20,941 nucleotides of DNA, from positions 1 to 20,941 of the IMG/VR virus record IMGVR_UViG_3300025646_000464, one strand, 5' to 3'. The notes beneath the pieces were generated by a model that did no database searches, was not told the DNA's origin, and was given only the letters and a program-made list of their open reading frames with translations. Within the stretch, counting starts at the first letter, position 1. Each line of letters opens with the position of its first letter. The position numbers and the translations under genes were made by a program. This stretch comes from a virus. Of this stretch, positions 811 through 17,715 are shown in pieces.

Positions 811-1737
811 ATGGCTGAACCCTATGACTACAGTTCGGACACGGCTCTTCAGGATTTGCTAAACCAACTATATAATCCGTACCAGCAAGACATTTTGTTG
901 GCGTATGGGTATCAACCTTCGCCGGGAACTCCGTCGATAACAAATCCCGGAGATTACATTGACCCGGACCCCGGTGGAAATGTTCCGTTACCGCCGCCGG
1001 GAGGTTACACGCCTCCCCCCGTGATTCCGCCTCCCGGTCCCGACCCGACCCCGCCTCCGCCTCCACCACCTAATCCATGCCCGGCGGGATATGTCATGGG
1101 TCCGGACGGCGTGTGCATAATTGATCCTGATACGGGAGGCCCGCAGCCCCCACCGCCTCCGCCCCCGGAGCCCCCACCGCCGCCCCCACCACCGCCTCCG
1201 CCGCAACCGCCTACCGGTTATGTTAGGCCCGCAGACATGAAGGACTATGACCCGTTCATGCACGGGAGACGGAATAAGTTTTACGGCATGGATGTTCTTG
1301 CGGGGTCTAGGCAAGAAGTCAGTGCGGATGAGTTTAATCGTCTTTTGGGTGGCACAGAAGGTAAGTATGGTCAGGGTGCTTTTTACGATCCCGAGCGCGG
1401 CTCTATTTATCAAAACATAGACGATGATAAAGTGTCGCAAGAAAATTCATCGTATGTGCCATACGGAGTTGATCCCAGCAAGTACACGGATGTGCAAAGG
1501 CTACAAGCCGCACACATGGGTATAGGCGATCAAGAGGGAAGATCGCGAAACCCTATTTACACTAGCCAAAGGATTGGCGACAAGATGTATTTTGTCGATA
1601 ACGGTAAAGTATATTCGTATGACGTTAGAGACATTGAATATGGAGAGGGATCGCCTACGTTTGCAAGAGGCGGAGCGGTTAGTCCTGTAGCAAGAAGCGG
1701 TATTGGAGCGTTGTTTGCTAAGGAGGTTATGCGCTAA
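811..1737 (+). CDS. Polyproline-rich phage protein of unknown function
   Basis: The 308-aa product is not recognised. Residues 58-135 are dominated by proline, with uninterrupted runs at about 81-87, 113-119 and 121-131. They are split by a small Cys-containing island with the pattern CPAGYVMGPDGVC (residues 90-102). The C-terminal half (140-308) looks globular and charged. The C-terminus carries FARGGAVSPVARSG, a form of a short GG motif found in several other proteins of this window. It starts 4 bases after terL and its TAA overlaps the next ATG by one base (TAATG), so it is probably translationally coupled to its neighbours. Polyproline stretches of this length would be expected to stall ribosomes and need EF-P. 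A virion or ejected role is only a guess from position. Confidence 0.85.
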   Translation: MAEPYDYSSDTALQDLLNQLYNPYQQDILLAYGYQPSPGTPSITNPGDYIDPDPGGNVPLPPPGGYTPPPVIPPPGPDPTPPPPPPPNPCPAGYVMGPDGVCIIDPDTGGPQPPPPPPPEPPPPPPPPPPPQPPTGYVRPADMKDYDPFMHGRRNKFYGMDVLAGSRQEVSADEFNRLLGGTEGKYGQGAFYDPERGSIYQNIDDDKVSQENSSYVPYGVDPSKYTDVQRLQAAHMGIGDQEGRSRNPIYTSQRIGDKMYFVDNGKVYSYDVRDIEYGEGSPTFARGGAVSPVARSGIGALFAKEVMR

Positions 1738-3200
1738 TGGGGTTCATTTCCAACGCATTTGACTTTGACGAATTACGTAGACGAGCCGTTCAAGGGGGCC
1801 TAGCAAATTTAGCCCCCTTTGACTTTATTAACGTTGACAATGGTCGAATAACATTTAAACCCGGAACATCTAACGCTCAGCTTTTGCAGGTTATGAAGGC
1901 TACCGGATTAATTTCCGATGATGATGCAATGTGGTTTTCTCAGTTTTTTACTGATCCGAAAGACGATTGGTTAGTTCGTCGGTTTAACGATACAGAGCGT
2001 TTGTTTGATTACACGCGAAATGATTTTTCTGGCTTAAACGATGAGAATTGGGCGCGAATGTCGCGCTTGCAAGACACGTTAAACAAATATACTGAAACAG
2101 GCTCAATTCCTGTCACAAGTGAGTTTAAACGAAATTTTCCGTCATCTGCTATTCAATCTTATACACCGGTTGGAAGAGACGCGGAAGGTAATTTACTACC
2201 TTCTCGACCGGATTCAGCGGCACAGCGGCGTCAGGCCATAGACGATGTTGTAGTAACACAAGATGAAATGTCCCAGTACGACAACATTGTTGTAGACCCG
2301 TTCGACATTCCGGATGATCCGCCCCCGCCGCCCCCAAAAGACCCCGGAGACGTGCTTCCCCCGCCGGAAGATCCCGTTCTTCCTCCCGGAGACGTGCTTC
2401 CCCCGCCCACGGACCCCGTTTTGCCTCCCGGAGACATTTTCCCGCCGGGGACCATGCCGCAATTTAATTTACCAGATTTCGGAAACATAAGCGCGTACAT
2501 GCAAAACAAGCCTTTGGATGTACCGCAAATGTCTGAAGAAGAGTTACGGCAAATACGGCAGGGAGGTTTTTTGGGCCTCGTGAACCGTGGTCCGGGAGGT
2601 TTGCCTGAAGAGTATCGACCGCCGTCTAATTCTCCTTTTGCAAAGTTTCCCGGAATAGTGGGAGGTGGTTTATCCGGTTTTGACCCTTCTGTTATTCAGC
2701 AGTTAATTCAAAAATATTTGTCGGACCGCGGAATTGATCCACAGGATCTTAACTTGCCTGCGGAGGGTGCGGATGACGTTCCTGTTCCCGCAGATTCGGA
2801 AGAAGAAGTTATAAAGATGAAAGATGGTGGGGGCATTGCCAGCTTGATGGTGCAAGACAATTCTCCTGCTCGGGGTGAAGGGATTGAAGCCTTTTTGGCA
2901 CCAGTGGACAAGGATGCTCCGATTAGTCGTGATCGACGGAAGGCGGCTTTGATGCGAACGATGCAGCGTCTTGAGCAGGAACAGCAGCAACAGATGATGC
3001 AACAGCAGCAACAGGTGGCGCAGCAGCAACAACCACCGCAAGGTATGCCTCCACAGGGGATGATGCCTCCCGGTATGCCCCCGCAGGGGATGATGCCTCC
3101 CGGTATGCCCCCGCAGGGGATGATGCCTCCCGGACCACCGCCCACGGCCCAAGGACCAGTGCCCACGATGCAACAGGGCATCATGCCCATGGCTCGTTAA
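1737..3200 (+). CDS. Pro/Gln-rich repeat-containing phage protein
   Basis: The 487-aa product is of unknown function. Residues 1-150 look globular. Residues 195-240 are proline-rich with a tandem 14-aa repeat (PGDVLPPPEDPVLP form). Residues about 350-385 contain the acidic and MKDGGGIASLM segment. From about 405 to the end it is first helical and glutamine-rich, then made of PPQGMMPPGM repeats encoded by three 30-bp direct repeats. Gene start is TAATG-coupled to the upstream gene. The combination of disorder, repeats and position between terminase and portal suggests a minor virion or assembly protein, but there is no diagnostic domain. Length of the repeat tract is likely to vary among relatives. 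Confidence 0.85.
   Translation: MGFISNAFDFDELRRRAVQGGLANLAPFDFINVDNGRITFKPGTSNAQLLQVMKATGLISDDDAMWFSQFFTDPKDDWLVRRFNDTERLFDYTRNDFSGLNDENWARMSRLQDTLNKYTETGSIPVTSEFKRNFPSSAIQSYTPVGRDAEGNLLPSRPDSAAQRRQAIDDVVVTQDEMSQYDNIVVDPFDIPDDPPPPPPKDPGDVLPPPEDPVLPPGDVLPPPTDPVLPPGDIFPPGTMPQFNLPDFGNISAYMQNKPLDVPQMSEEELRQIRQGGFLGLVNRGPGGLPEEYRPPSNSPFAKFPGIVGGGLSGFDPSVIQQLIQKYLSDRGIDPQDLNLPAEGADDVPVPADSEEEVIKMKDGGGIASLMVQDNSPARGEGIEAFLAPVDKDAPISRDRRKAALMRTMQRLEQEQQQQMMQQQQQVAQQQQPPQGMPPQGMMPPGMPPQGMMPPGMPPQGMMPPGPPPTAQGPVPTMQQGIMPMAR
2343..2450 (+). repeat. Tandem 42-bp coding repeat (14-aa PGDVLPPP unit)
   Basis: There are two full in-frame units (2343-2384 and 2385-2426), then a partial third that diverges (PGDIFPPG). 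The units encode PGDVLPPPEDPVLP and PGDVLPPPTDPVLP. This is a simple tandem duplication inside the Pro-rich part of the 487-aa protein. Confidence 0.85.
3042..3131 (+). repeat. Three 30-bp tandem direct repeats
   Basis: Units lie at 3042-3071, 3072-3101 and 3102-3131, encoding a GMPPQGMMPP-type decapeptide. Units 2 and 3 are identical and unit 1 differs at two third-codon positions, indicating recent slippage or recombination expansion. The following bases diverge. Confidence 0.9.
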
Positions 3201-4730
3201 GTGTCCACGCCTACGCTTACATTTGCGGAAAAAGAACGTCCGGTTGAGCAAACTATGACGCCAGAAGAGCAGTACGGCGTTATTAAAGCCCCTGATTCGC
3301 CTTTGATGGCTAAGGCCGCTGAGATTTTTCGTGGAATAGAGCGTCGTGTCGAAGGCAGTCCCGCAGAGTTTGTATTACCCGGCGGGGGTATAGCTACTGT
3401 CTTGGAGCGTAAAGCTTACGGCGAAGATCCTTCTGCTCTTGAGTATGGTTTTGCTGCGTTAGACGCCGCAGACGTAACACCGGTAGGTAAATTCTTTGCT
3501 ATTTTTGGAGGTTTAGCGGCAAAAGGCGCTAAGAACATACAACAGCGGGTAGATAAACTTCGGGAACAAGGGTTAGAGGGGCAAGATTTATGGAATGCCC
3601 AAGCTAACCAAAGTAAACGAGGGTATTACGACCCGTCTGATGGCCAGTTTCGGGTTGAATTTGACACCGCTAACGCGGATATCAAAGCCAGTTTTGAAGC
3701 CTCTGACGGTAAAACTCTTTTTGGTCCGGGCTTTAGTAGCGGTGAAACATTAAAACTAGATGATGTTTTAGACTTTCCACAAATTTTTGACGCATATCCA
3801 CAACTCCGTGAAATCACAGTAAAACCAGTTCCTTTGATGGATATAGATACAAAAGGAGCTTACGACCCAAAAACAAAAACGATGTATCTTCGGGCAAGCC
3901 AAGACAGAGAGGCGGTGGTTTCTACCGCCTTGCATGAGCTACAACACGCCATACAGACTGAGGAAGATTTTAGGAAAGGCGCATCGCCCTCTAATTTTTT
4001 GCCGGAAAACTTCGTAGAGATAGACAAGGAAGTTAGGGACAGAAAGAAAACGCTGGAAGAAGAGCTTAAAAAAGAAGTTGCTCGTAAGCTAGATGTAGAA
4101 AAAGTGTCCTATCAGGTCCCGGACCAATTAGCTCTTGTTTTCGGATTAGTTCGTAAAAATAAAAATGTACCGGACATATTACGAGACGTAGAGGAGTTGT
4201 CTGAAATAACCGATGTTTCTAGAAAAGTAGAGCTTCGCGATACCATAGACAAAAAAACTGGGGGCGGCTTTAACGAACGATACGAGTTAGAAGCCTTAAT
4301 GAAGACTTTTGGGAATGACCCAGAAGCTGTTTTGGAGATGGTGAACACCGTCCGGCCTCTTTTGCCGCTTTACAGCGAAGCTACTGAGGATTATTTCAAA
4401 AACAGGACTAGATACTACTCGGCTATACAGCAATACAGGGCGGTTCCCGGCGAAGTTGAAGCTAGGAATGTCCAAGCTAGGCGCGAAGATCCTGACTTAA
4501 AACAACAATATCCGCCCTCAACCGCAGAAGTTAGCGCGGAAAAAATGATATACCCCATAGACCCTAACTACCGTAGGCCCTATCTAAAGATAGGCCAACA
4601 AGGCCCAGAGCCTGAAGGAATGGCCATGGGCGGCGGCGTAGGCAGCCTTGCTCCTGTTGCGAGAAACATGTTTAATGTATCTGATATCAAGCGCGGCGTC
4701 GGCGCGTACATCCCGTATACTAGGAGATAA
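3201..4730 (+). CDS. Putative zinc-metallopeptidase-like (HELQH) phage protein, LPD23-like
   Basis: The 509-aa product has a central region (about 190-260) in which a pattern ending FDAYPQLREI, then GAYDPKTKTMYL, then TALHELQHAIQ is seen. The HExxH zinc motif is His245, Glu246, His249. This order (tyrosine/proline helix, GxY strand, HE(L/I)QHAIQ helix) matches, from memory, a large polyvalent protein-associated domain (LPD23-type) found in phage and mobile-element polyvalent proteins. Residues 270-345 are strongly charged and probably coiled coil. The C-terminus has MAMGGGVGSLAPVARNMF, a version of the shared GG motif. The start is GTG immediately after the previous stop; an ATG at 3255 (residue 19) is an alternative, since neither has a good Shine-Dalgarno. 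It may be an ejected or head-maturation protease; activity is unproven. Confidence 0.8.
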   Translation: MSTPTLTFAEKERPVEQTMTPEEQYGVIKAPDSPLMAKAAEIFRGIERRVEGSPAEFVLPGGGIATVLERKAYGEDPSALEYGFAALDAADVTPVGKFFAIFGGLAAKGAKNIQQRVDKLREQGLEGQDLWNAQANQSKRGYYDPSDGQFRVEFDTANADIKASFEASDGKTLFGPGFSSGETLKLDDVLDFPQIFDAYPQLREITVKPVPLMDIDTKGAYDPKTKTMYLRASQDREAVVSTALHELQHAIQTEEDFRKGASPSNFLPENFVEIDKEVRDRKKTLEEELKKEVARKLDVEKVSYQVPDQLALVFGLVRKNKNVPDILRDVEELSEITDVSRKVELRDTIDKKTGGGFNERYELEALMKTFGNDPEAVLEMVNTVRPLLPLYSEATEDYFKNRTRYYSAIQQYRAVPGEVEARNVQARREDPDLKQQYPPSTAEVSAEKMIYPIDPNYRRPYLKIGQQGPEPEGMAMGGGVGSLAPVARNMFNVSDIKRGVGAYIPYTRR

Positions 4731-4733
4731 AGC

Positions 4734-5576
4734 ATGAGATTTGTTTTTGGATTGTTGTGTGCGATAGCGGTAACTGGTTGTTCTTCAAGCACTTCTCAAT
4801 ATTACGAAGCGGTGCAGGCGGCGGCTCAAGCTAACGCGGCGGCTTCTCAGGCTAAATTTGACGCGTTGTCCAAGATTGCTGCTGCGGGAGACGGGCAAGC
4901 GGCTAGTGCGGCGGTGATGGCTTTGGCGTTGACTCAGACCCCTTCGGTGACACCTGTTCCGCAACAGTCTCAGGCGCTTCAATGGGCGTCAATTTTGGCT
5001 ACTCCTGTGACCAGTTTAGGCATGATGTGGATGCAGTCAGATTCGGCCAAGACGATGGCCAAATATAATGCGGATGTCAGCCTTGCGCGGGTAGCGGCGA
5101 CGGCGGAATCTAATCAAGCTTTGTATGGTGCTTTTGTTGACGCAAATCAGATTACGGGGGACGTTGCGGTGGCCGGTATGAATTCGGCGGGCAACGTGGA
5201 TTATTCTGCGTTTGTTGATGGTTTGGTGACTTTGGGTACTACGGGCATGACCGAGTTAGGTGATTTGGGCTCGGCGGGTTTTGATTCTAATGTAGCAATT
5301 TCTGGCGCGGCGATCACGGGTCTTGTTGATTTAGGTAACGCGGGCTTGGATGCTTCTACGACGTTAGGCACGGCTGGGATTACGGGTGTGTCGAATGTTG
5401 CGATTGAAGGTTATAAGACCATGTTGACTTTAGATCAAGGCAACAACGACCTTATGGGCACAGTTTGGACCGATTATACGGCGGCCATTCAGAATATAAT
5501 GGACAGCGTTCCGCAACTTAGTTGCACGGTTACTAACAATGCTGACGGTACATCTACGGTTAGCTGCACACCGTGA
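4734..5576 (+). CDS. Predicted phage lipoprotein, Ala/Gly/Thr-rich
   Basis: The 280-aa product begins with a short basic residue, a hydrophobic stretch and a lipobox ending V-T-G-C at Cys16, followed by CSSSTSQYY. This predicts a signal-peptidase II lipoprotein anchored in the host envelope. The mature part is alanine-rich and predicted helical (17-125). It then has loosely repeated Gly/Thr/Asp segments such as LGTAGITGV and GLVDLGNAGL (about 160-225), and two Cys near the C-terminus. AGGAG at 4722-4726, seven bases from the ATG, fixes the start. It sits between the HELQH gene and the portal gene. Roles such as superinfection exclusion, envelope modification or lysis are possible. It lacks the small size of a typical outer spanin. 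Function unknown. Confidence 0.85.
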   Translation: MRFVFGLLCAIAVTGCSSSTSQYYEAVQAAAQANAAASQAKFDALSKIAAAGDGQAASAAVMALALTQTPSVTPVPQQSQALQWASILATPVTSLGMMWMQSDSAKTMAKYNADVSLARVAATAESNQALYGAFVDANQITGDVAVAGMNSAGNVDYSAFVDGLVTLGTTGMTELGDLGSAGFDSNVAISGAAITGLVDLGNAGLDASTTLGTAGITGVSNVAIEGYKTMLTLDQGNNDLMGTVWTDYTAAIQNIMDSVPQLSCTVTNNADGTSTVSCTP

Positions 5577-5607: not shown

Positions 5608-8058
5608 ATGGCAAACGGTGACGATAAAGCACTTCTTTCGTCTTTGATGGATAGTACGGCGGGACCGGAAATAGACGAAGCTGAGATGGAGCTTGATATA
5701 GAGATCGCGGCTCCCGGCACTTTTGTGGGCTCTTTCAACGACGTGTTGCCAGAGGGCATAGAGATTGAGGAGCAAGAAGATGGTGGAGTTATTGTTGACC
5801 TTGATCCGTTGGCCATGGTTGGTGTTGGCGGTGGCGATTTCGATGCTAACTTGGCAGAGGAGTTGGACGATAGAGCGCTTGGTGGGTTGGCTTCAGATTT
5901 AATTGGGGATTTTGAGGCTAACAAAGCCTCGCGTTCTGAGTGGGAAGATGCGTATTCCAAGGGTTTGGAGCTTTTGGGTTATACCTATGAGGAGCGCACG
6001 ATGCCGTTTCGGGGAGCGACGGGTGTTACGCATCCGTTGTTGGCGGAAGCGGCCACGCAGTTTCAGGCGCAGGCATTTAATGAGCTTTTGCCGCCTTCGG
6101 GTCCTGTCCGCACACATGTTGTGGGGGAGAAGACCAAGGAAAATGAGGCGCAGGCGTACCGTGTAAAGGAATTTATGAACTACTACATTACGAATGTAAT
6201 GGAGGAGTATACACCTGAGTTTGATCAGATGTTGTTTTATTTGCCTTTGGCGGGGTCCACTTTCAAGAAAGTGTACTTTGATGCGGCGATTGATCGGGCG
6301 GTAAGCAAGTTTGTTCCGGCGGAGGACATTGTGGTTCCTTATGGGGCCACGGACCTTGATTCATGTGAGAACATCACACAGGTTGTGAAGATGTCCATGA
6401 ATGATCTACGTATTCGTCAGGTTATGGGTTTTTATCGGGACATTCCGGTGTTGCCGTCACAGTCTGATAGCGACGACGTATCAGACGAGATGGACAAGTT
6501 AAGTGGTGTTGAGCCCAGCAACTTAGATTATGAATGTACGTTGTTGGAGTGCCACGTTAATTTGGATCTGCCCGGTTTTGAGGACATGGGGGAAGATGGT
6601 GAACCAACAGGAATTAAAATTCCTTACGTTGTTACGATTAGTGAGGATAATGGACAGATACTTGCCATTAGACGAAATTATAAAGAGGACGACCAAAGAA
6701 GACGAAAGATTCAGTATTTCGTCCATTACAAGTTTCTTCCGGGATTCGGGTTTTACGGGCTGGGCCTCATCCACACTATTGGCGGATTGTCCAGAACGGC
6801 CACGGCGGCTCTTCGCCAGCTTATTGATGCTGGTACTCTCTCTAATCTTCCTGCTGGTTTCAAAGCTAGAGGACTTAGGGTCAGAGATGATGAGGAGCCT
6901 TTACAGCCGGGTGAATTTAGGGACGTAGACGCGCCGGGTGGGGCGATTCGGGATTCTTTGATGCCGTTGCCATTTAAGGGGCCTGACGGCACTTTGATGC
7001 AGCTTTTGAGTTTTGTGGTGGATGCAGGCCGTAGGTTTGCCACTATCACGGACATGAAAGTTGGGGACGGCAACCAGCAGGCTCCTGTGGGCACCACCGT
7101 AGCGTTGTTGGAACAGGGCTCACGGGTCATGAGTGCGGTGCATAAGCGTATGCACTACAGCATGAAGCAAGAGTTTAAGCTTTTGGCTCGGGTGATGTCT
7201 GAGTATTTGCCGCAAGAGTACCCATACGCTGTTTCTGGTGGGGATCGCACGGTTATGCGGGAGGATTTTGACGACCGCGTTGATGTGGTTCCGGTGTCTA
7301 ATCCGAATACATTTTCTCAGGCTCAGCGCATTGCGATGGCGCAGTCGCAGCTTGAGATGGCCCAGCAAGCGCCGCAGCTTCATGACTTGCACGAAGCTTA
7401 TCGTCGCATGTACGAAGCGTTAGGAATCAATGACATAGATAAGCTACTTATAGCGCCTTCTTCTGATGAGCCGATCCCGAAAGATCCGGCGCAGGAGAAC
7501 ATGGATTCTATGGACATGGTTCAGATGAAAGCGTTTGAGGGTCAGGATCACGACGCTCACATTCGTACACACCTGACTTTTGCATCCTCGCCTATGTTGC
7601 AACAGTTGCCACCGGTAGGTTTAGCTTTGCAGAAGCACGTCATTGAGCATGTGAAGCTGAAATCGCAAGAAATTGCCATGGCGCAAATGTTGCAACAGAC
7701 GGGAGGCCAACCTTTGACCCCCGATTTAGAGCTTCAATTGGAGTCTATGGTGGCGCAGATTAACGCGCAGGAGTTTCAGAAGCTCAAGCAAATTGCCGCA
7801 GAAGTAAGCGGTCAGGGTCAACAAGGCCCCGATCCTTTGATACAATTAAAGCAACAAGAGCTTCAGATAGATCAGCAGAAAATGCAGCAGGACGCTCAGA
7901 TGGATCAAGCAGAGTTGCAGCTTGACCAGCAACGTATGCAAAACAAAGCTACGGAGTTCCAGCAAAGGCTTGCTAGCCAAGAGCGACAGACGCAGGCACG
8001 TATTGATGCCGCATTAGATCGTGAACTACTCAAACAACAGTTTGACAGGAATAAATGA
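5608..8058 (+). CDS. Portal protein (P22-like podoviral type)
   Basis: The 816-aa product is the expected size for a podovirus portal, the dodecameric ring at the capsid vertex through which DNA is packaged and to which the tail attaches. An acidic N-terminal 100 residues precede the conserved core. Typical segments are ERTMPFRGATGVTHPLLAEA (128-147), FNELLPPSGPVRTHVVG, then YPFxL-like LFYLPLAGSTFKKVYFD. A region around FGFYGLGLIHTIGGLSRTATA follows, and then TDMKVGDGNQQAPVGTTVAL. The last ~130 residues are Gln-rich and predicted coiled coil, like the barrel of P22 gp1. TAAGGG at 5596-5601 is the likely ribosome site. The next gene follows after one base. Portal identity is confident; P22-like grouping is from pattern memory. 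Confidence 0.93.
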   Translation: MANGDDKALLSSLMDSTAGPEIDEAEMELDIEIAAPGTFVGSFNDVLPEGIEIEEQEDGGVIVDLDPLAMVGVGGGDFDANLAEELDDRALGGLASDLIGDFEANKASRSEWEDAYSKGLELLGYTYEERTMPFRGATGVTHPLLAEAATQFQAQAFNELLPPSGPVRTHVVGEKTKENEAQAYRVKEFMNYYITNVMEEYTPEFDQMLFYLPLAGSTFKKVYFDAAIDRAVSKFVPAEDIVVPYGATDLDSCENITQVVKMSMNDLRIRQVMGFYRDIPVLPSQSDSDDVSDEMDKLSGVEPSNLDYECTLLECHVNLDLPGFEDMGEDGEPTGIKIPYVVTISEDNGQILAIRRNYKEDDQRRRKIQYFVHYKFLPGFGFYGLGLIHTIGGLSRTATAALRQLIDAGTLSNLPAGFKARGLRVRDDEEPLQPGEFRDVDAPGGAIRDSLMPLPFKGPDGTLMQLLSFVVDAGRRFATITDMKVGDGNQQAPVGTTVALLEQGSRVMSAVHKRMHYSMKQEFKLLARVMSEYLPQEYPYAVSGGDRTVMREDFDDRVDVVPVSNPNTFSQAQRIAMAQSQLEMAQQAPQLHDLHEAYRRMYEALGINDIDKLLIAPSSDEPIPKDPAQENMDSMDMVQMKAFEGQDHDAHIRTHLTFASSPMLQQLPPVGLALQKHVIEHVKLKSQEIAMAQMLQQTGGQPLTPDLELQLESMVAQINAQEFQKLKQIAAEVSGQGQQGPDPLIQLKQQELQIDQQKMQQDAQMDQAELQLDQQRMQNKATEFQQRLASQERQTQARIDAALDRELLKQQFDRNK

Positions 8059-10506: not shown

Positions 10507-10704
10507 GTGGATTCTTTATACTTAGCTCAGTTTATTCAACGAGCCATAAAAGATCGCCGTGTTCAAATTTTAGAGTTGTTAGAAAACAACCATGTAAAGT
10601 CGATGGAGCAGTATCAAAACTTGATGGGCGAACTATCGGCGCTTAATTTTATTGCACAGGAACTCTCGGGCCTGCTAGAGCAACAGGAGCAACTAAATGA
10701 CTGA
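10507..10704 (+). CDS. Small helical hypothetical protein
   Basis: This 65-aa protein is predicted to be all helix (QFIQRAIKDRRVQILELLEN and a C-terminal LLEQQEQLND). It starts with GTG after GGAG at 10498-10501. It overlaps the co-chaperonin gene by eight bases, and the AGGAG for that gene lies inside its 3' end, suggesting coupled expression. No family is recognised. The heptad-like pattern suggests oligomerisation or a small adaptor role. Confidence 0.7.
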   Translation: MDSLYLAQFIQRAIKDRRVQILELLENNHVKSMEQYQNLMGELSALNFIAQELSGLLEQQEQLND

Positions 10705-11143
10705 TTTGGCTGAAAAAGTCGATCTTGAAGCCGCCGCAGAAGGCGTAAAATCTTTGTACAAAACACCGCAACCAAAAGTCTTAGATCCTGATTCTATGGA
10801 TAAAAGTCTTTTGTCTCGTATGCCTCAACCCACCGGGTGGAGAATGCTAATTCTTCCGTATCGGGGAAAAGAAACCACCGATGGCGGCATTTACATCCCT
10901 AACAAAGTGTTGGATGACACGCAAATTCAGACGGTAGTCGGATATGTGATCAAACAAGGCCCGCTTTGTTACAAAGACACCGAAAAATTTCCCGAAGGAG
11001 CGTGGTGTCAGGAAAAAGATTGGGTAATTTTTGCCCGATATGCGGGGTCTAGATTCCGTATTGACGGCGGAGAATGCCGAATTTTGAATGATGATGAAAT
11101 TTTAGCAACCATAGATGACCCAGAAGATATTCTGAGTCTTTAA
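10697..11143 (+). CDS. GroES-like phage co-chaperonin
   Basis: The 148-aa product has an N-terminal extension of about 45 residues, then a Cpn10 fold. GWRMLILPYRGKETTDGGIYIP (47-68) aligns with the first strand and mobile loop, with GGIYIP at the GroEL-contact tripeptide position. VVGYVIKQGP follows, then DWVIFARYAGSRFRIDGGEC and DDEILATI at the C-terminus. Phage GroES homologues such as T4 gp31 replace host GroES to fold the capsid protein. The gene's place directly before scaffold and capsid supports that role. No GroEL gene is visible, so host GroEL would be the partner. AGGAG at 10685-10689 is seven bases from the ATG. Confidence 0.88.
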   Translation: MTDLAEKVDLEAAAEGVKSLYKTPQPKVLDPDSMDKSLLSRMPQPTGWRMLILPYRGKETTDGGIYIPNKVLDDTQIQTVVGYVIKQGPLCYKDTEKFPEGAWCQEKDWVIFARYAGSRFRIDGGECRILNDDEILATIDDPEDILSL

Positions 11144-11157: not shown

Positions 11158-12033
11158 ATGGCTAATGCTGCGGAAGAAGCTCAATTTGAGTTAGATGTAG
11201 GGGATGCTCAAGAAACTGAGGTAGAACTTGAGCAAGGGGTTGAAGAACCTGTTTCCGCTCCAGAAGAGCAGGAAATGGAGCAATACAGCGAATCTGTTCA
11301 AAAGCGCATCAATCGTCTCACGAAAAAAATGCGCGATGCGGAACGAGAGCGGGAAGAGGCGTTAAATTACGCTAAAAACGTTCAAGCCGAAGCTGTTCAA
11401 ATTCGTCAAAGAATGCAGAATTTGGATCAAGGTTACATGTCTGAATATGGCGGACGCTTGGCTTTGCAACAGCAACAGGCAGAAGCAAAGCTCCGCAGAG
11501 CCGTAGAACTTGGGGACGCCGACGCCACGGTAGAGGCCCAAAAAGAGTTAACTAATCTTTCGGTAGCCGTTAATAATTACGCCACGGCTCAGCGCCAAGC
11601 TCAGCACCAAGCTCAATATGCTCAGCAGTATTATGAGCAGGCCGCCCAACAGTCGCAGCAACAGGCCCAACAACAAGTTAAACCTGACGCTAAAGCGGAA
11701 GATTGGGCAGGCCGAAACAAATGGTTTGGTCAAGATGAAGCTATGACGTTTGCTGCTTTTGGGATTCACAAGAAACTTATTGAAGATGAAGGATTTGATC
11801 CCACAAGCGATGATTATTATAATGAGCTAGACTCTAGAATTAAGCGGGAATTCCCGCATAAGTTTGGAGAAGGGCAATCCACTAGCCGCAGACCCGCTCA
11901 GACCGTGGCTGGTGTTTCCCGCTCTAGTTCATCTGGGCGCAGTAAAAGGGTCAAACTCTCCCCGACCCAAGTAGCAATTGCTAAAAAGTTGGGAGTGCCG
12001 CTTGAAGAATACGCGAAATACGTAAAGGAGTAA
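11158..12033 (+). CDS. Putative capsid scaffolding protein
   Basis: The 291-aa protein looks like a scaffold: an acidic N-terminus (1-45), a long coiled coil starting ESVQKRINRLTKKMRDAERE, a Gln/Ala-rich helix (104-175), a conserved patch DWAGRNKWFGQDEAMT (182-197), and a basic Ser/Arg linker. The C-terminus is SPTQVAIAKKLGVPLEEYAK (268-287). A basic helix-turn-helix-like C-terminus binding the coat protein is a known scaffold feature (P22 gp8). Its position before the capsid gene, after GroES, fits. Scaffold function is inferred from architecture and order, not from a proven domain. Confidence 0.8.
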   Translation: MANAAEEAQFELDVGDAQETEVELEQGVEEPVSAPEEQEMEQYSESVQKRINRLTKKMRDAEREREEALNYAKNVQAEAVQIRQRMQNLDQGYMSEYGGRLALQQQQAEAKLRRAVELGDADATVEAQKELTNLSVAVNNYATAQRQAQHQAQYAQQYYEQAAQQSQQQAQQQVKPDAKAEDWAGRNKWFGQDEAMTFAAFGIHKKLIEDEGFDPTSDDYYNELDSRIKREFPHKFGEGQSTSRRPAQTVAGVSRSSSSGRSKRVKLSPTQVAIAKKLGVPLEEYAKYVKE

Positions 12034-16014: not shown

Positions 16015-16218
16015 ATGAGAGTAGAAGAAGTTTTATCTCGGCTGGAAAAACACGAGGCAGAATGTAATTTGCGTTATAAGCGCATTGAAGAGCGTTTAGA
16101 TGACCAAAAAGACATGGTGTCAAAGAACTCTGAAGCGTTAACGCGCTTAGATATGAAGATTTGGGGACTAGCCATATTGATCATTGTCTCGCCATTTGCG
16201 GCCAAGCTTTGGAGTTAA
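16015..16218 (+). CDS. Small coiled-coil/TM protein, XhlA-like layout
   Basis: This 67-aa protein uses ATG 16015, two bases after the previous stop. Residues 1-45 are charged and helical (VLSRLEKHEAECNLRYKRIE), and 49-65 form one membrane helix (WGLAILIIVSPFAAKLW). This N-coil/C-membrane arrangement matches XhlA-type haemolysin/holin-accessory proteins by layout only; no sequence family can be proven. It lies outside the main lysis cassette. Alternatives are a spanin-like or membrane-tether protein. The ribosome site is weak. Confidence 0.75.
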   Translation: MRVEEVLSRLEKHEAECNLRYKRIEERLDDQKDMVSKNSEALTRLDMKIWGLAILIIVSPFAAKLWS

Positions 16219-16219
16219 C

Positions 16220-16456
16220 ATGGGCGTTTGTGGATCAAGGGTAAAAACAGGGCCAAAAAAAACCAAAGTTCAAGTCACTTACATGAAAAAAGGTGGCGAG
16301 GCTTCCAGTAAAAGCAAAGGAAGCAAAATTTGCCCTGAAGGCAAAGCATGGGCAAAGCGCACTTTTGACACATACCCTTCTGCTTACGCAAATATGGCGG
16401 CCAGTAAGTATTGCAAAGACCCTAATTATGCTAAGAAAGCAAAAGGCAAAGCCTGA
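16220..16456 (+). CDS. Small basic Cys-containing protein (ICPEGKAWAKR motif)
   Basis: The 78-aa protein starts at ATG 16220 after GGAG at 16211-16214. It is Lys-rich and has KICPEGKAWAKRTFDTYPSA (37-56) followed by YANMAASKYCKDPNY. The motif set (CPxGKAWAKR, YPSAYAN, KYC) recurs in small proteins of marine phages and some large DNA viruses, with unknown function. It carries MKKGGEA, a variant of the window's shared GG motif. TGATG links it to the next gene. Cys4, Cys38 and Cys65 could bind metal. Confidence 0.85.
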   Translation: MGVCGSRVKTGPKKTKVQVTYMKKGGEASSKSKGSKICPEGKAWAKRTFDTYPSAYANMAASKYCKDPNYAKKAKGKA

Positions 16457-16779
16457 TGGGCGAATTAGCTAAATGGCGCAATCAAAAATGGGTTCGCATC
16501 GACAGTAGTGGCAACATTGCTGGCGAATGTGGCACGTCTAAAAACAAGAAAAACCCGGATCGCTGTCTACCGCGCTCCAAAGCGGAAAGTCTTAGCAAAT
16601 CGGAACGTGCTGCTACGGCGCGTAAAAAGAAAAAAGCCGGATCCGGAGGACAGCAAGTTGTTGCAAATACTAAAGCTGCCAAAGTTAAAATGGCGGCTAG
16701 GGGCGGTGAAGTCCGGAAAAATCACAAAGGTTGTGGCGCGGTCATGTCTAATCGAAGAAAACGGACTAGGTATGCCTAA
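16456..16779 (+). CDS. Small basic Cys-containing protein (KKNPDRCLP motif)
   Basis: The 107-aa protein is very rich in Lys, Arg and Ser. Residues 7-40 include WRNQKWVRIDSSGNI and GECGTSKNKKNPDRCLPR. It continues with SLSKSERAATARKKKKAGSG and ends GCGAVMSNRRKRTRYA. The CGTSKxKKNPDRCLP and ERAATARKKKK blocks are familiar from many marine phage genomes, function unknown. It holds MAARGGEV, another GG motif copy. TGATG couples it to the upstream gene. Its basic nature suggests binding to DNA or to the acidic capsid interior. Confidence 0.85.
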   Translation: MGELAKWRNQKWVRIDSSGNIAGECGTSKNKKNPDRCLPRSKAESLSKSERAATARKKKKAGSGGQQVVANTKAAKVKMAARGGEVRKNHKGCGAVMSNRRKRTRYA

Positions 16780-16781
16780 AA

Positions 16782-17345
16782 ATGGACGTAGAACGCCAGA
16801 TAATGGAGGAAATTCGAGGCTGGTCTGAACATGCCTTGGAAGTTCCAAACCCCTTTTTTAATAATTTGCCTGCGTGTCCTTACGCCAAAAGCGCGTGGCT
16901 AAATGACAAAGTTGGCTTTGCATTTAGCTATCAAAAAGAAAACCAAACGTTGTATACCACGTTGTCTCAGTTTGATGACACATATGACATTGTGTGTTGC
17001 GTTCATCTTCAGTACGAAGAAGATTCAGAACAATTTCACAGTTACATAGGTGCTTTAAACGAGGCCATATCCATGGGTATTTTTATTCAAAAAGACTTGT
17101 GGGCCATGGGCTTTCACCCAGACGACGACCAAAACGGAGAAGTTTTTGACCAATCGTTTGAGCCGATAACGGACGCGATATATGCGATAACGTTTGTTCA
17201 AAGACTTTCAAAACTGGAAATATCCGCAGAAACATTAAGAAAAAAAGGGTATTATGACAATTATTTAAGCAACCCCGAGACGGCTCATCTTTGGGATGAA
17301 CGTCAAGACCTTTACAGGAGACTATGCGATGCCGGGAATGAATAG
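16782..17345 (+). CDS. Conserved hypothetical protein with PxCPYAK motif
   Basis: The 187-aa protein is acidic and cytosolic-looking. It is unlike the basic proteins around it. It has VPNPFFNNLPACPYAKSAWL (21-40), then a beta-rich part (VGFAFSYQKENQTLYTTLSQ) and an extended helical C-terminal part ending WDERQDLYRRLCDAGNE. The N-terminal PxCPYAKxAW motif seems conserved in related marine phage proteins, but no function is known to me. It overlaps the start of the next gene by 17 bases. It could be an enzyme or regulator; no catalytic motif is evident. Confidence 0.8.
   Translation: MDVERQIMEEIRGWSEHALEVPNPFFNNLPACPYAKSAWLNDKVGFAFSYQKENQTLYTTLSQFDDTYDIVCCVHLQYEEDSEQFHSYIGALNEAISMGIFIQKDLWAMGFHPDDDQNGEVFDQSFEPITDAIYAITFVQRLSKLEISAETLRKKGYYDNYLSNPETAHLWDERQDLYRRLCDAGNE
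17316..17320 (+). promoter_or_regulatory. Ribosome binding site selecting start of basic protein gene
   Basis: AGGAG is eight bases before ATG 17329 and inside the previous gene, favouring that ATG over upstream in-frame starts and giving a 17-base overlap. Confidence 0.6.
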
Positions 17346-17715
17346 AAAGATGCCTAAAAAAATGCGTGGCGGCGGAATGGCGGCCCCAAAAGCAATGCCG
17401 TTAAAAAAAGGCGGCGGCTTGCGTTCGGGAGGCGCTAAAAAAAGCTCGCGTATTGTTCCTGACGAATCCGGCGGTCGTAAAAAAGCACCGCTTGGCATGG
17501 AAATATCGCTCGGAAAGAGGCCTGATCCGGTGGTTCCAGATGAGTCTGGGGGCCGTAAAAAGTTAAAGCCTGCTCCTAACAAAGGGGCCTCCATGTTGCC
17601 AAAAAATGTGCGAAACAAGATGGGTTTTATGCGGGATGGCGGGGCTGTGAAAAAGAAAAGCGGCGGCGGAGTTAGCAAGTCTGCCGTTCGTAGTTGTTCC
17701 AAGAAGCCGTTGTAA
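17329..17715 (+). CDS. Basic Gly/Lys-rich protein with repeated VPDESGGRKK peptide
   Basis: The 128-aa protein starts at ATG 17329. It is rich in Gly, Lys, Arg and Met, with MRGGGMAAPKAM and LKKGGGLRSGG near the N-terminus. The peptide VPDESGGRKK occurs twice, at 43-52 and 69-78. The third copy-like region near the end is FMRDGGAVKKKSGGG. A single Cys lies at 123. It is disordered by composition and probably nucleic-acid binding or packaged. It overlaps the next gene by one base (TAATG). It is not assigned to a named family. Confidence 0.8.
   Translation: MPGMNRKMPKKMRGGGMAAPKAMPLKKGGGLRSGGAKKSSRIVPDESGGRKKAPLGMEISLGKRPDPVVPDESGGRKKLKPAPNKGASMLPKNVRNKMGFMRDGGAVKKKSGGGVSKSAVRSCSKKPL
17455..17562 (+). 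repeat. Duplicated 30-bp coding segment with synonymous divergence
   Basis: Copies at 17455-17484 and 17533-17562 both encode VPDESGGRKK, but 7 of 10 codons differ, all at the third position. The peptide, not the DNA, has been conserved. Confidence 0.85.

Follow-up and report, generated by a model that had tools for sequence, protein, structure and literature searches.

In phage T4, a short capsid targeting sequence directs diverse internal proteins to the head, from which they are later ejected. These targeting sequences are N-terminal and are cleaved, whereas the tag described here is mostly C-terminal.

Phage polyvalent proteins have been argued to be packaged and injected (Iyer et al., 2017; PMC5512222). 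Their metallopeptidase (MPTase) is described in that paper as having an HEXXH motif and, separated from it by variable inserts, a Glu contributed by the second C-terminal helix. The locus studied here resembles this system in its zincin MPTase domain with HEXXH, a predicted later-helix Glu and a variable insert, and also in lying near virion genes, a setting for which injection together with the DNA has been proposed (PMC5512222). Polyvalent proteins are typically large and multi-domain, whereas the proteins of this locus are smaller and join a constant short tail to an exchangeable body; a constant tail or loading tag is not described in the available part of PMC5512222.

The MuF polymorphic toxins of temperate phages are likewise portal-adjacent and combine a constant part with a variable effector part, and a metallopeptidase domain is present in 20% of the putative MuF toxins (PMC5576092). 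Their constant MuF domain is N-terminal and they are encoded downstream of the portal gene (PMC5576092), whereas the constant part seen here is a C-terminal tail encoded upstream of it; a Pfam search of the protein under study gave no match to a MuF family at E ≤ 0.1. The HTVC023P-type pelagiphages and phage DSL-LC04 also hold unrelated accessory proteins in the interval between TerL and portal (PcfJ-like, 202 aa, 484 + 893 aa, and 616 + 752 aa), but the tail and the 12-residue tag were not found there. Among the titles and opening lines of abstracts in the literature searched, no constant-tail cargo system or tag of this kind was found in phages. Within the literature and sequences searched, the arrangement seen here, in which a constant short tail is joined to an exchangeable body in a fixed terminase–portal slot, is a new form of phage polymorphic or polyvalent effectors.

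Gene Layout of the Terminase–Portal Interval

The window analysed here is the whole 20,941-nucleotide stretch of IMG/VR virus record IMGVR_UViG_3300025646_000464. By portal and MCP, its closest relatives are DSL-LC04 and the HTVC023P-type pelagiphages, and we infer that the window phage belongs to a marine podovirus-like group, the word marine resting on these relatives.

The interval, hereafter the slot, is bordered upstream by the gene for the terminase large subunit (positions 9–806, 5' end cut by the record; Pfam and PHROGs) and downstream by the portal gene (5608–8058; PHROGs), and the slot genes g2–g5 lie on the plus strand, as do these two. The slot begins with g2, which encodes a proline-rich protein with the C-terminus ..GGAVSPVARSGIGALFAKEVMR (811–1737), and g3, which encodes a proline/glutamine-rich protein with the conserved end ..PTMQQGIMPMAR (1737–3200). 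These are followed by g4 (3201–4730), which has a GTG start and homologues in relatives and encodes the 509-aa candidate cargo protein with a HELQH zincin-like domain, and by g5 (4734–5576), a lipoprotein-like ORF of 280 aa between g4 and the portal gene. The order TerL - g2 - g3 - g4 - (g5) - portal was repeated in a first set of relatives, comprising twelve IMG/VR loci; among the matches listed, their portals were 82–100% identical and their MCPs, where present, 95–100% identical. The sequence-only reading had placed the HELQH protein next to the portal. This is correct for many relatives, in which the g4-type gene abuts the portal gene directly, but in the window itself g5 intervenes.

As other loci either lack g5 or have an unrelated 148-aa ORF in its place, it is a second swapped unit. 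In many loci, a lipoprotein-like or 148-aa ORF was located downstream of the tail-bearing gene, where it may be a candidate for the cognate immunity gene expected of a polymorphic toxin. The g5 product has a lipobox-like start (VTGCSSS) plus repeats. Conserved short ends are also carried by g2 (..GIG-x-LF-x-KEVMR) and g3 (..PTMQQGIMPMA[RG]), and the two genes form one ORF in several relatives (L007–L009 and L014).

The g4 protein could be divided into several segments. The N-terminal module, N2, was recognised from relatives and occupies approximately residues 10–95 (3228–3485; VEQTMTPEEQYGVIKAPDS...). Apart from a short partial match of 76%, it is 78–98% identical in the relatives found with it. 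It also precedes another zincin subfamily, is missing in other alleles, and was modelled by AlphaFold2 with a pLDDT below 50. Approximately residues 113–160 (3537–3680) are the counterpart of the LPD23-like stretch of relatives and gave no LPD23 match themselves. The zincin-like, DUF6782-type domain, delimited from Pfam, the model and structure alignment, covers approximately residues 186–423 (3756–4469). The HELQH motif that the sequence-only reading had pointed to is indeed encoded there, as H245-E246-L247-Q248-H249 (3933–3947), with H245 and H249 as putative zinc ligands and E246 as the putative general base. A third zinc ligand may be supplied by E418 or E420 of G417-E418-V-E420-A-R422 (4449–4466) at the predicted start of the second helix, and a long helical insert is predicted to separate the HExxH helix from this second ligand site. 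The protein ends in a constant tail (residues 477–509, GGGVGSLAPVARNMFNVSDIKRGVGAYIPYTRR; 4629–4727) that is common to unrelated bodies in related phages, and within which the 12-residue tag GVGSLAPVARNM (4635–4670) and a second motif, RGVGAYIPY (4692–4718), are located.

Family Assignment of the HELQH Domain

A Pfam search of the g4 protein returned DUF6782 (PF20573, putative metallopeptidase) with 30.5 bits against a cut-off of 27, over just 46 residues (216–261). Relatives L008, L010, L014, L020 and L085 scored 14.4–26.2 bits for the same family, under the cut-off, and IrrE-type M78 also stayed below its cut-off in g4 (19.4 versus 22). NCBIfam gave no match for the g4 protein. The HExxH motif was kept in all 26 members of the HELQH-domain family among the tail-bearing proteins, which answers the concern, raised with the original claim, that homologues might lack these residues; the stricter second-site pattern GExEA[RS] was kept in 23 of the 26, the non-matching proteins being those of L019, L071 and L109. 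In the alignment of 21 homologues, with identity to the g4 protein down to 32%, residues H245, E246, Q248, H249, Q252, E255, G417, E418 and E420 were invariant. A chance occurrence of HExxH was considered and rejected, given the above-cut-off DUF6782 match and the conservation of the motif throughout the family. The g4 sequence has the features by which the zincin-like MPTase of polyvalent proteins is recognised, HEXXH and a Glu on what is predicted to be the second C-terminal helix. The g4 gene probably encodes a zinc-dependent protease.

The sequence-only reading had further described the domain as LPD23-like. Membership in this family was not borne out, as no LPD23 (PF18838) profile match was obtained in the g4 protein, nor anywhere in the record at E ≤ 10; sub-threshold matches were seen in two relatives of g4, L008 (E 0.023) and L093 (E 0.007). 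A tblastn search with the domain matched 42 phage records, 39 of them Pseudomonas phages. The stretch homologous to the domain lies at approximately residues 2192–2334 of a 3799-aa protein in Pseudomonas phage Epa33, where it begins within an LPD23 domain (2165–2221), and inside a 5145-aa protein in phage 8P. Both of these proteins, from the two matching records examined, are annotated as 'structural protein'. The g4 protein itself has one recognisable enzymatic domain, and relatives combine DUF6973 with HEYRH or HEARH with DUF6884. The broader proposal of a metallopeptidase-like domain of the polyvalent-protein type stands, on the strength of the DUF6782 match, the homologous stretch in giant polyvalent proteins and the matches among viral structures presented below; the g4 domain is of a known kind, a polyvalent-type zincin.

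Predicted Structure of the Domain

In the AlphaFold2 model of the full protein, residues 151–410 were mostly well modelled, and residues 1–150 and 415–509 had pLDDT values below 50. The domain alone (residues 98–452) was modelled with a mean pLDDT of 75.6. This model placed the HExxH motif on a helix at 139–157 and the G-E-x-E residues at the start of a later helix at 319–332 (domain numbering), the Glu region being of moderate confidence (block pLDDT about 68–71). In the structural check that had been suggested for the domain, both of these helices were present in the model; Foldseek found no match in the PDB at E ≤ 1e-3.

The VIA alignments to 6mdw (Z 5.4, 3.3 Å, 83 aa, 22% identity), selecase (Z 5.0), lethal factor (Z 4.9) and 8sln PprI (Z 4.8, 4.0 Å, 90 aa) all covered the sheet and the HExxH helix. 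We take these four, of which 6mdw is a DNA-protein crosslink repair protease, to be zincins. The zincins stood among VIA rows at Z 4.5–5.4, values that were equalled by helical-bundle rows matching the insert alone. The best matches among predicted viral structures (BFVD), at E 7.6e-8, 4.0e-6 and 8.0e-5, were to proteins annotated as 'Large polyvalent protein associated domain-containing'. With modest confidence, the modelled fold of the g4 domain can be called zincin-like.

Census of the Slot and Its Constant Tail

With the final 49 residues as the query, 25 loci were returned, and with an alignment of 13 tails, 66. The tail HMM detected 99 ORFs, corresponding to 78 distinct proteins, 77 of which had a delimited C-terminal tail. 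The conserved C-terminal tail is approximately 35 residues long and is predicted to be disordered. Tail proteins with a complete 5' end ranged in size from 165 to 1190 aa. Of the 77 tail-bearing proteins, 34 lacked the HExxH motif; when only those encoded with an intact 5' end were counted, the figure was 21 of 52.

When the census was anchored on the portal, a tail-bearing gene was present in 49 of the 53 loci whose sequence extends 1.5 kb or more beyond the portal on its upstream side, a figure that is skewed to close relatives because the best 80 of 597 portal matches were taken (53 of these 80 reach that far) and that includes the tail gene of L094, added by eye. The tail gene was absent in L046, L053, L054 and L098; the slot locus is therefore not essential. 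In L046 (307–2189), three unrelated ORFs precede the portal instead of g2–g5, two of them with signal-peptide-like starts.

A scan of genome contigs for bacterial carriers returned solely L037 (NZMJ01000019.1), a contig of 5392 bases binned with a Maricaulis MAG. This contig matches phage contig L014 in length and match position, and is likely misbinned or else a hint at the host.

Exchange of Bodies on the Constant Tail

The bodies seen in front of the tail comprised the HELQH domain (four subfamilies), a HEYRH protein, DUF6973 (PF22322, up to 32.3 bits versus 27), DUF6884 (PF21818, 37.9–59.9 bits versus 30), a HEARH segment and an EIQSD domain. PHROG and Pfam searches gave nothing informative for the EIQSD body, and Pfam gave no match for the bodies of L146, L150 and L153. 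The N-terminal part of the L146 and L150 proteins is, to our eye, reminiscent of an ADP-ribosyltransferase, an assignment that we do not assert. A blast comparison with module references yielded 31 module strings plus 'none' over the 78 proteins, some of the strings being 5'-truncated copies of one architecture.

Homology between the HEYRH module and the HELQH domain was considered, and no signal was obtained (hhalign probability 0.1); the two are therefore treated as unrelated at the profile level, and a zincin fold common to both is possible. By hhalign, the region upstream of EIQSD is a homologue of the zincin domain (probability 95.7, E 9.1e-9), with an LAIQD/LALQS-type sequence at the position of HELQH. 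The HExxH motif has thus been lost there, which indicates that the fold can persist without the site. This pseudoenzyme region was seen in L016, L027, L052, L056, L058, L059, L061, L075, L092, L104 and L117.

For bodies of at least 100 aa, 1920 of 2850 tail-protein pairs had no body similarity at blastp E 1e-3. Loci L015, L022/L023 and L024 have portals that are 99.755% identical and tails that are 100% identical, and their bodies are unrelated, being a HELQHW zincin, DUF6973+HEYRH and EIQSDWHQ (all three ORFs 5'-cut by the contig). The island of identical tail DNA spans 101 bases between L015 and L022 and 107 bases between L015 and L024; it starts at, or just before, GGG codons, and the sequence upstream is unrelated. 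In the L015 comparisons, the gene after the tail is also unrelated, and identity is back at 98.7–99.4% before the portal. The tail is therefore an isolated island in L015 versus L022, as the genes on both of its sides are unrelated.

The g4 gene is one allele of a locus with a swappable body and a constant tail, which the sequence-only reading had missed. A constant part joined to an exchangeable effector part is the architecture of polymorphic effectors and toxins, with a putative trafficking role for the constant part.

The 12-Residue Tag and Selection on the Tails

Aligned and divergent tails yielded the tag pattern G-x-[GASNTQ]-[SAGT]-[LM]-x3-A-[RKT]-x-M. Across 1654 distinct ORFs (439,546 aa), this pattern had 80 matches, in 70 ORFs, versus 0.20 in residue shuffles, a count that shows confinement and copy number and not independent discovery, because the pattern was written after the tails had been seen. 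On the plus strand of the loci up to L129, the tag was carried by 86 ORFs, namely 85 tail-HMM ORFs and the slot gene of L094, and none was found outside the cargo genes of these loci. It was present in 66 of the 78 distinct tail proteins, the remainder having variant or half-deleted tails. Several proteins carry it more than once: those of L094 and L152 have three copies (in the chain, after DUF6884 and at the end), that of L153 has two at the N-terminus, and those of L092, L093, L095, L144 and L155 have two at the C-terminus. Within the sensitivity of tblastn for a short query, no tag was found in 50,697 phage records.

Tails on unrelated bodies had a median dN of 0.285, a median dS of 1.380 and a median dN/dS of 0.196 (929 usable of 1378 pairs), and changes affected 0.268, 0.265 and 0.534 of sites at codon positions 1, 2 and 3, respectively. 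The low dN/dS and the third-position excess indicate that the amino-acid sequence is what the tails keep. Among 1674 pairs whose bodies are unrelated, tail identity was correlated with portal identity (Spearman 0.67); its correlation with body identity was weaker (Spearman 0.35, 811 pairs). In a Mantel test over 71 proteins, 0 of 200 permutations gave a tail–portal correlation as high; the physical linkage of tail and portal gene could by itself give rise to this correlation.

Resemblance to DNA-Ejection Proteins

A looser motif, M1 (G[IVM][GASNQ][SA][LMYF]), was counted in four long contigs and the window. It occurred 18 times in slot genes versus 0.63 expected, 8 times in homologues of an ejection protein (phrog_4287) versus 0.27 expected, and 8 times in all other genes versus 7.96 expected, ratios that are descriptive because the classes were drawn after the matches had been seen and the genomes are related. 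The phrog_4287 homologues with G[IV]G-type motifs are located at L132:4352–5587, L135:14781–15728, L142:23096–23980 and L143:23766–24602; two of these four were scanned against PHROGs and matched phrog_4287 with E 5.7e-5 and 2.5e-9. The ejection-protein motifs QGVGAFQPF, RGIGAFMNPF and EGVGSYEPF resemble RGVGAYxPY of the tail.

The ejection homologue of DSL-LC04 (phrog_4287, E 6.9e-9) contains QGIGGYQPY and GIGAL. The counts in cultured relatives were mixed: M1 occurred 9 times in DSL-LC04 (2.14 expected), twice in HTVC023P (1.50 expected), twice in the part of HTVC027P (0.40 expected), one of these in a slot gene, and once in the part of 023Pt (0.62 expected). No M1 was found in the slot genes of DSL-LC04 (PcfJ-like), HTVC023P and 023Pt_psg01. 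We tentatively propose that the 12-residue, copy-number-variable tag loads interchangeable proteins into the head, as a delivery system for polymorphic effectors of marine podovirus-like phages, and that RGVGAYxPY may mimic the ejection-protein motif, thereby docking the cargo in the ejection apparatus, a proposal that we regard as plausible but somewhat doubtful.

Interpretation of the Locus and Alternative Explanations

The slot proteins differ and yet share one short tail, which suggests plug-in protein loading and injection. On balance, we consider it somewhat probable that g4 is an allele of a polymorphic cargo locus, in which a virion-loading tail carries an ejected effector, here a zinc protease. 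We infer loading, ejection and proteolysis, and from the context, an ejected effector is presumably the best reading of g4. The tail would dock the protein inside the assembling head, on the portal, the ejection proteins or the scaffold, and the g4 protein would leave the particle together with the DNA. In the new host cell, the zinc protease of the g4 allele would cleave some protein of the host or of a defence system, or its own chain, and other alleles would deliver other activities. Exchange of the body would then change the effector without altering the loading interface.

A conserved tail next to a variable body might also be expected if g4 were an ordinary accessory gene that evolves fast in a hot spot of mosaicism and encodes a stand-alone metallopeptidase of the polyvalent type, the tail being where conserved downstream sequence begins and serving as a recombination anchor rather than for loading. 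Recent swaps with tails that are 100% identical in DNA are what a recombination anchor predicts, and the tail is linked to the portal gene. However, distant tails diverge synonymously while the protein is kept, an edge effect cannot place the tag at N-termini, in tandem or between modules, and in L015 versus L022 the gene that follows the tail is unrelated too. We hold this account to be unlikely, although it deserves serious attention. Under the cargo reading as well, part of the conservation of the tail could be due to recombination anchoring or to the ribosome-binding site of the next gene. It is improbable that the zincin serves self-processing, cutting [FY]A-x-GG-x-[VA]-type linkers of its own chain or of a neighbour, in the head or after ejection. 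The modules of relatives are joined at GG-containing linkers (a regex count of 84 in 78 proteins, given without a control expectation), and P1 DdrB offers a precedent, module release having been proposed for polyvalent proteins (Iyer et al., 2017; PMC5512222). Proteins free of HExxH nevertheless carry the same linkers and tail, so that linker cleavage there would be independent of such a cis protease.

The pseudoenzyme upstream of EIQSD, in which HELQH is replaced by LAIQD or similar, shows how the domain might serve as a catalytically dead structural or binding module; with HExxH intact in every member of the HELQH family proper, this is very improbable for g4. The sequence-only reading had also offered a prohead maturation protease, and its remark that no other such protease was evident agrees with the scans of the window ORFs (10 with Pfam, 10 + 2 with PHROGs). 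This absence among the ORFs scanned and the position in the packaging/head region are in line with that role for the phage group. Against it, a prohead protease would be expected to accompany its head genes, yet phages with 99.8%-identical portals carry unrelated bodies, HExxH-free replacements stand beside nearly unchanged portal and downstream genes, the motif is absent from 34 of the 77 tail proteins, and the tail gene is missing in 4 of 53 loci. As near-identical-portal phages swap the body and many bodies are HExxH-free, heads of this lineage can mature without the domain, and we give this role almost no credence.

If the tail is a loading tag, as the polymorphic cargo reading proposes, it would constitute a portable address into the phage head, with natural interchangeable payloads at one site. 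This would make it possible to test by what means tailed phages other than the T4-like ones sort non-structural cargo into their heads, and would give access to early-infection roles of the uncharacterised DUF6782, DUF6973, DUF6884 and EIQSD domains in marine bacteria. Candidate phage effectors could then be collected as whatever precedes the tail.

Elsewhere in the window, a GroES-like co-chaperonin is encoded in the virion module (10697–11143); DSL-LC04 and those HTVC023P-type phages that were examined also have it annotated. A scaffold candidate lies at 11158–12033. Within 16184–17715, three short basic ORFs (16184–16456, 16456–16779 and 17296–17715) contain repeats of KKGG/RGGG motifs.
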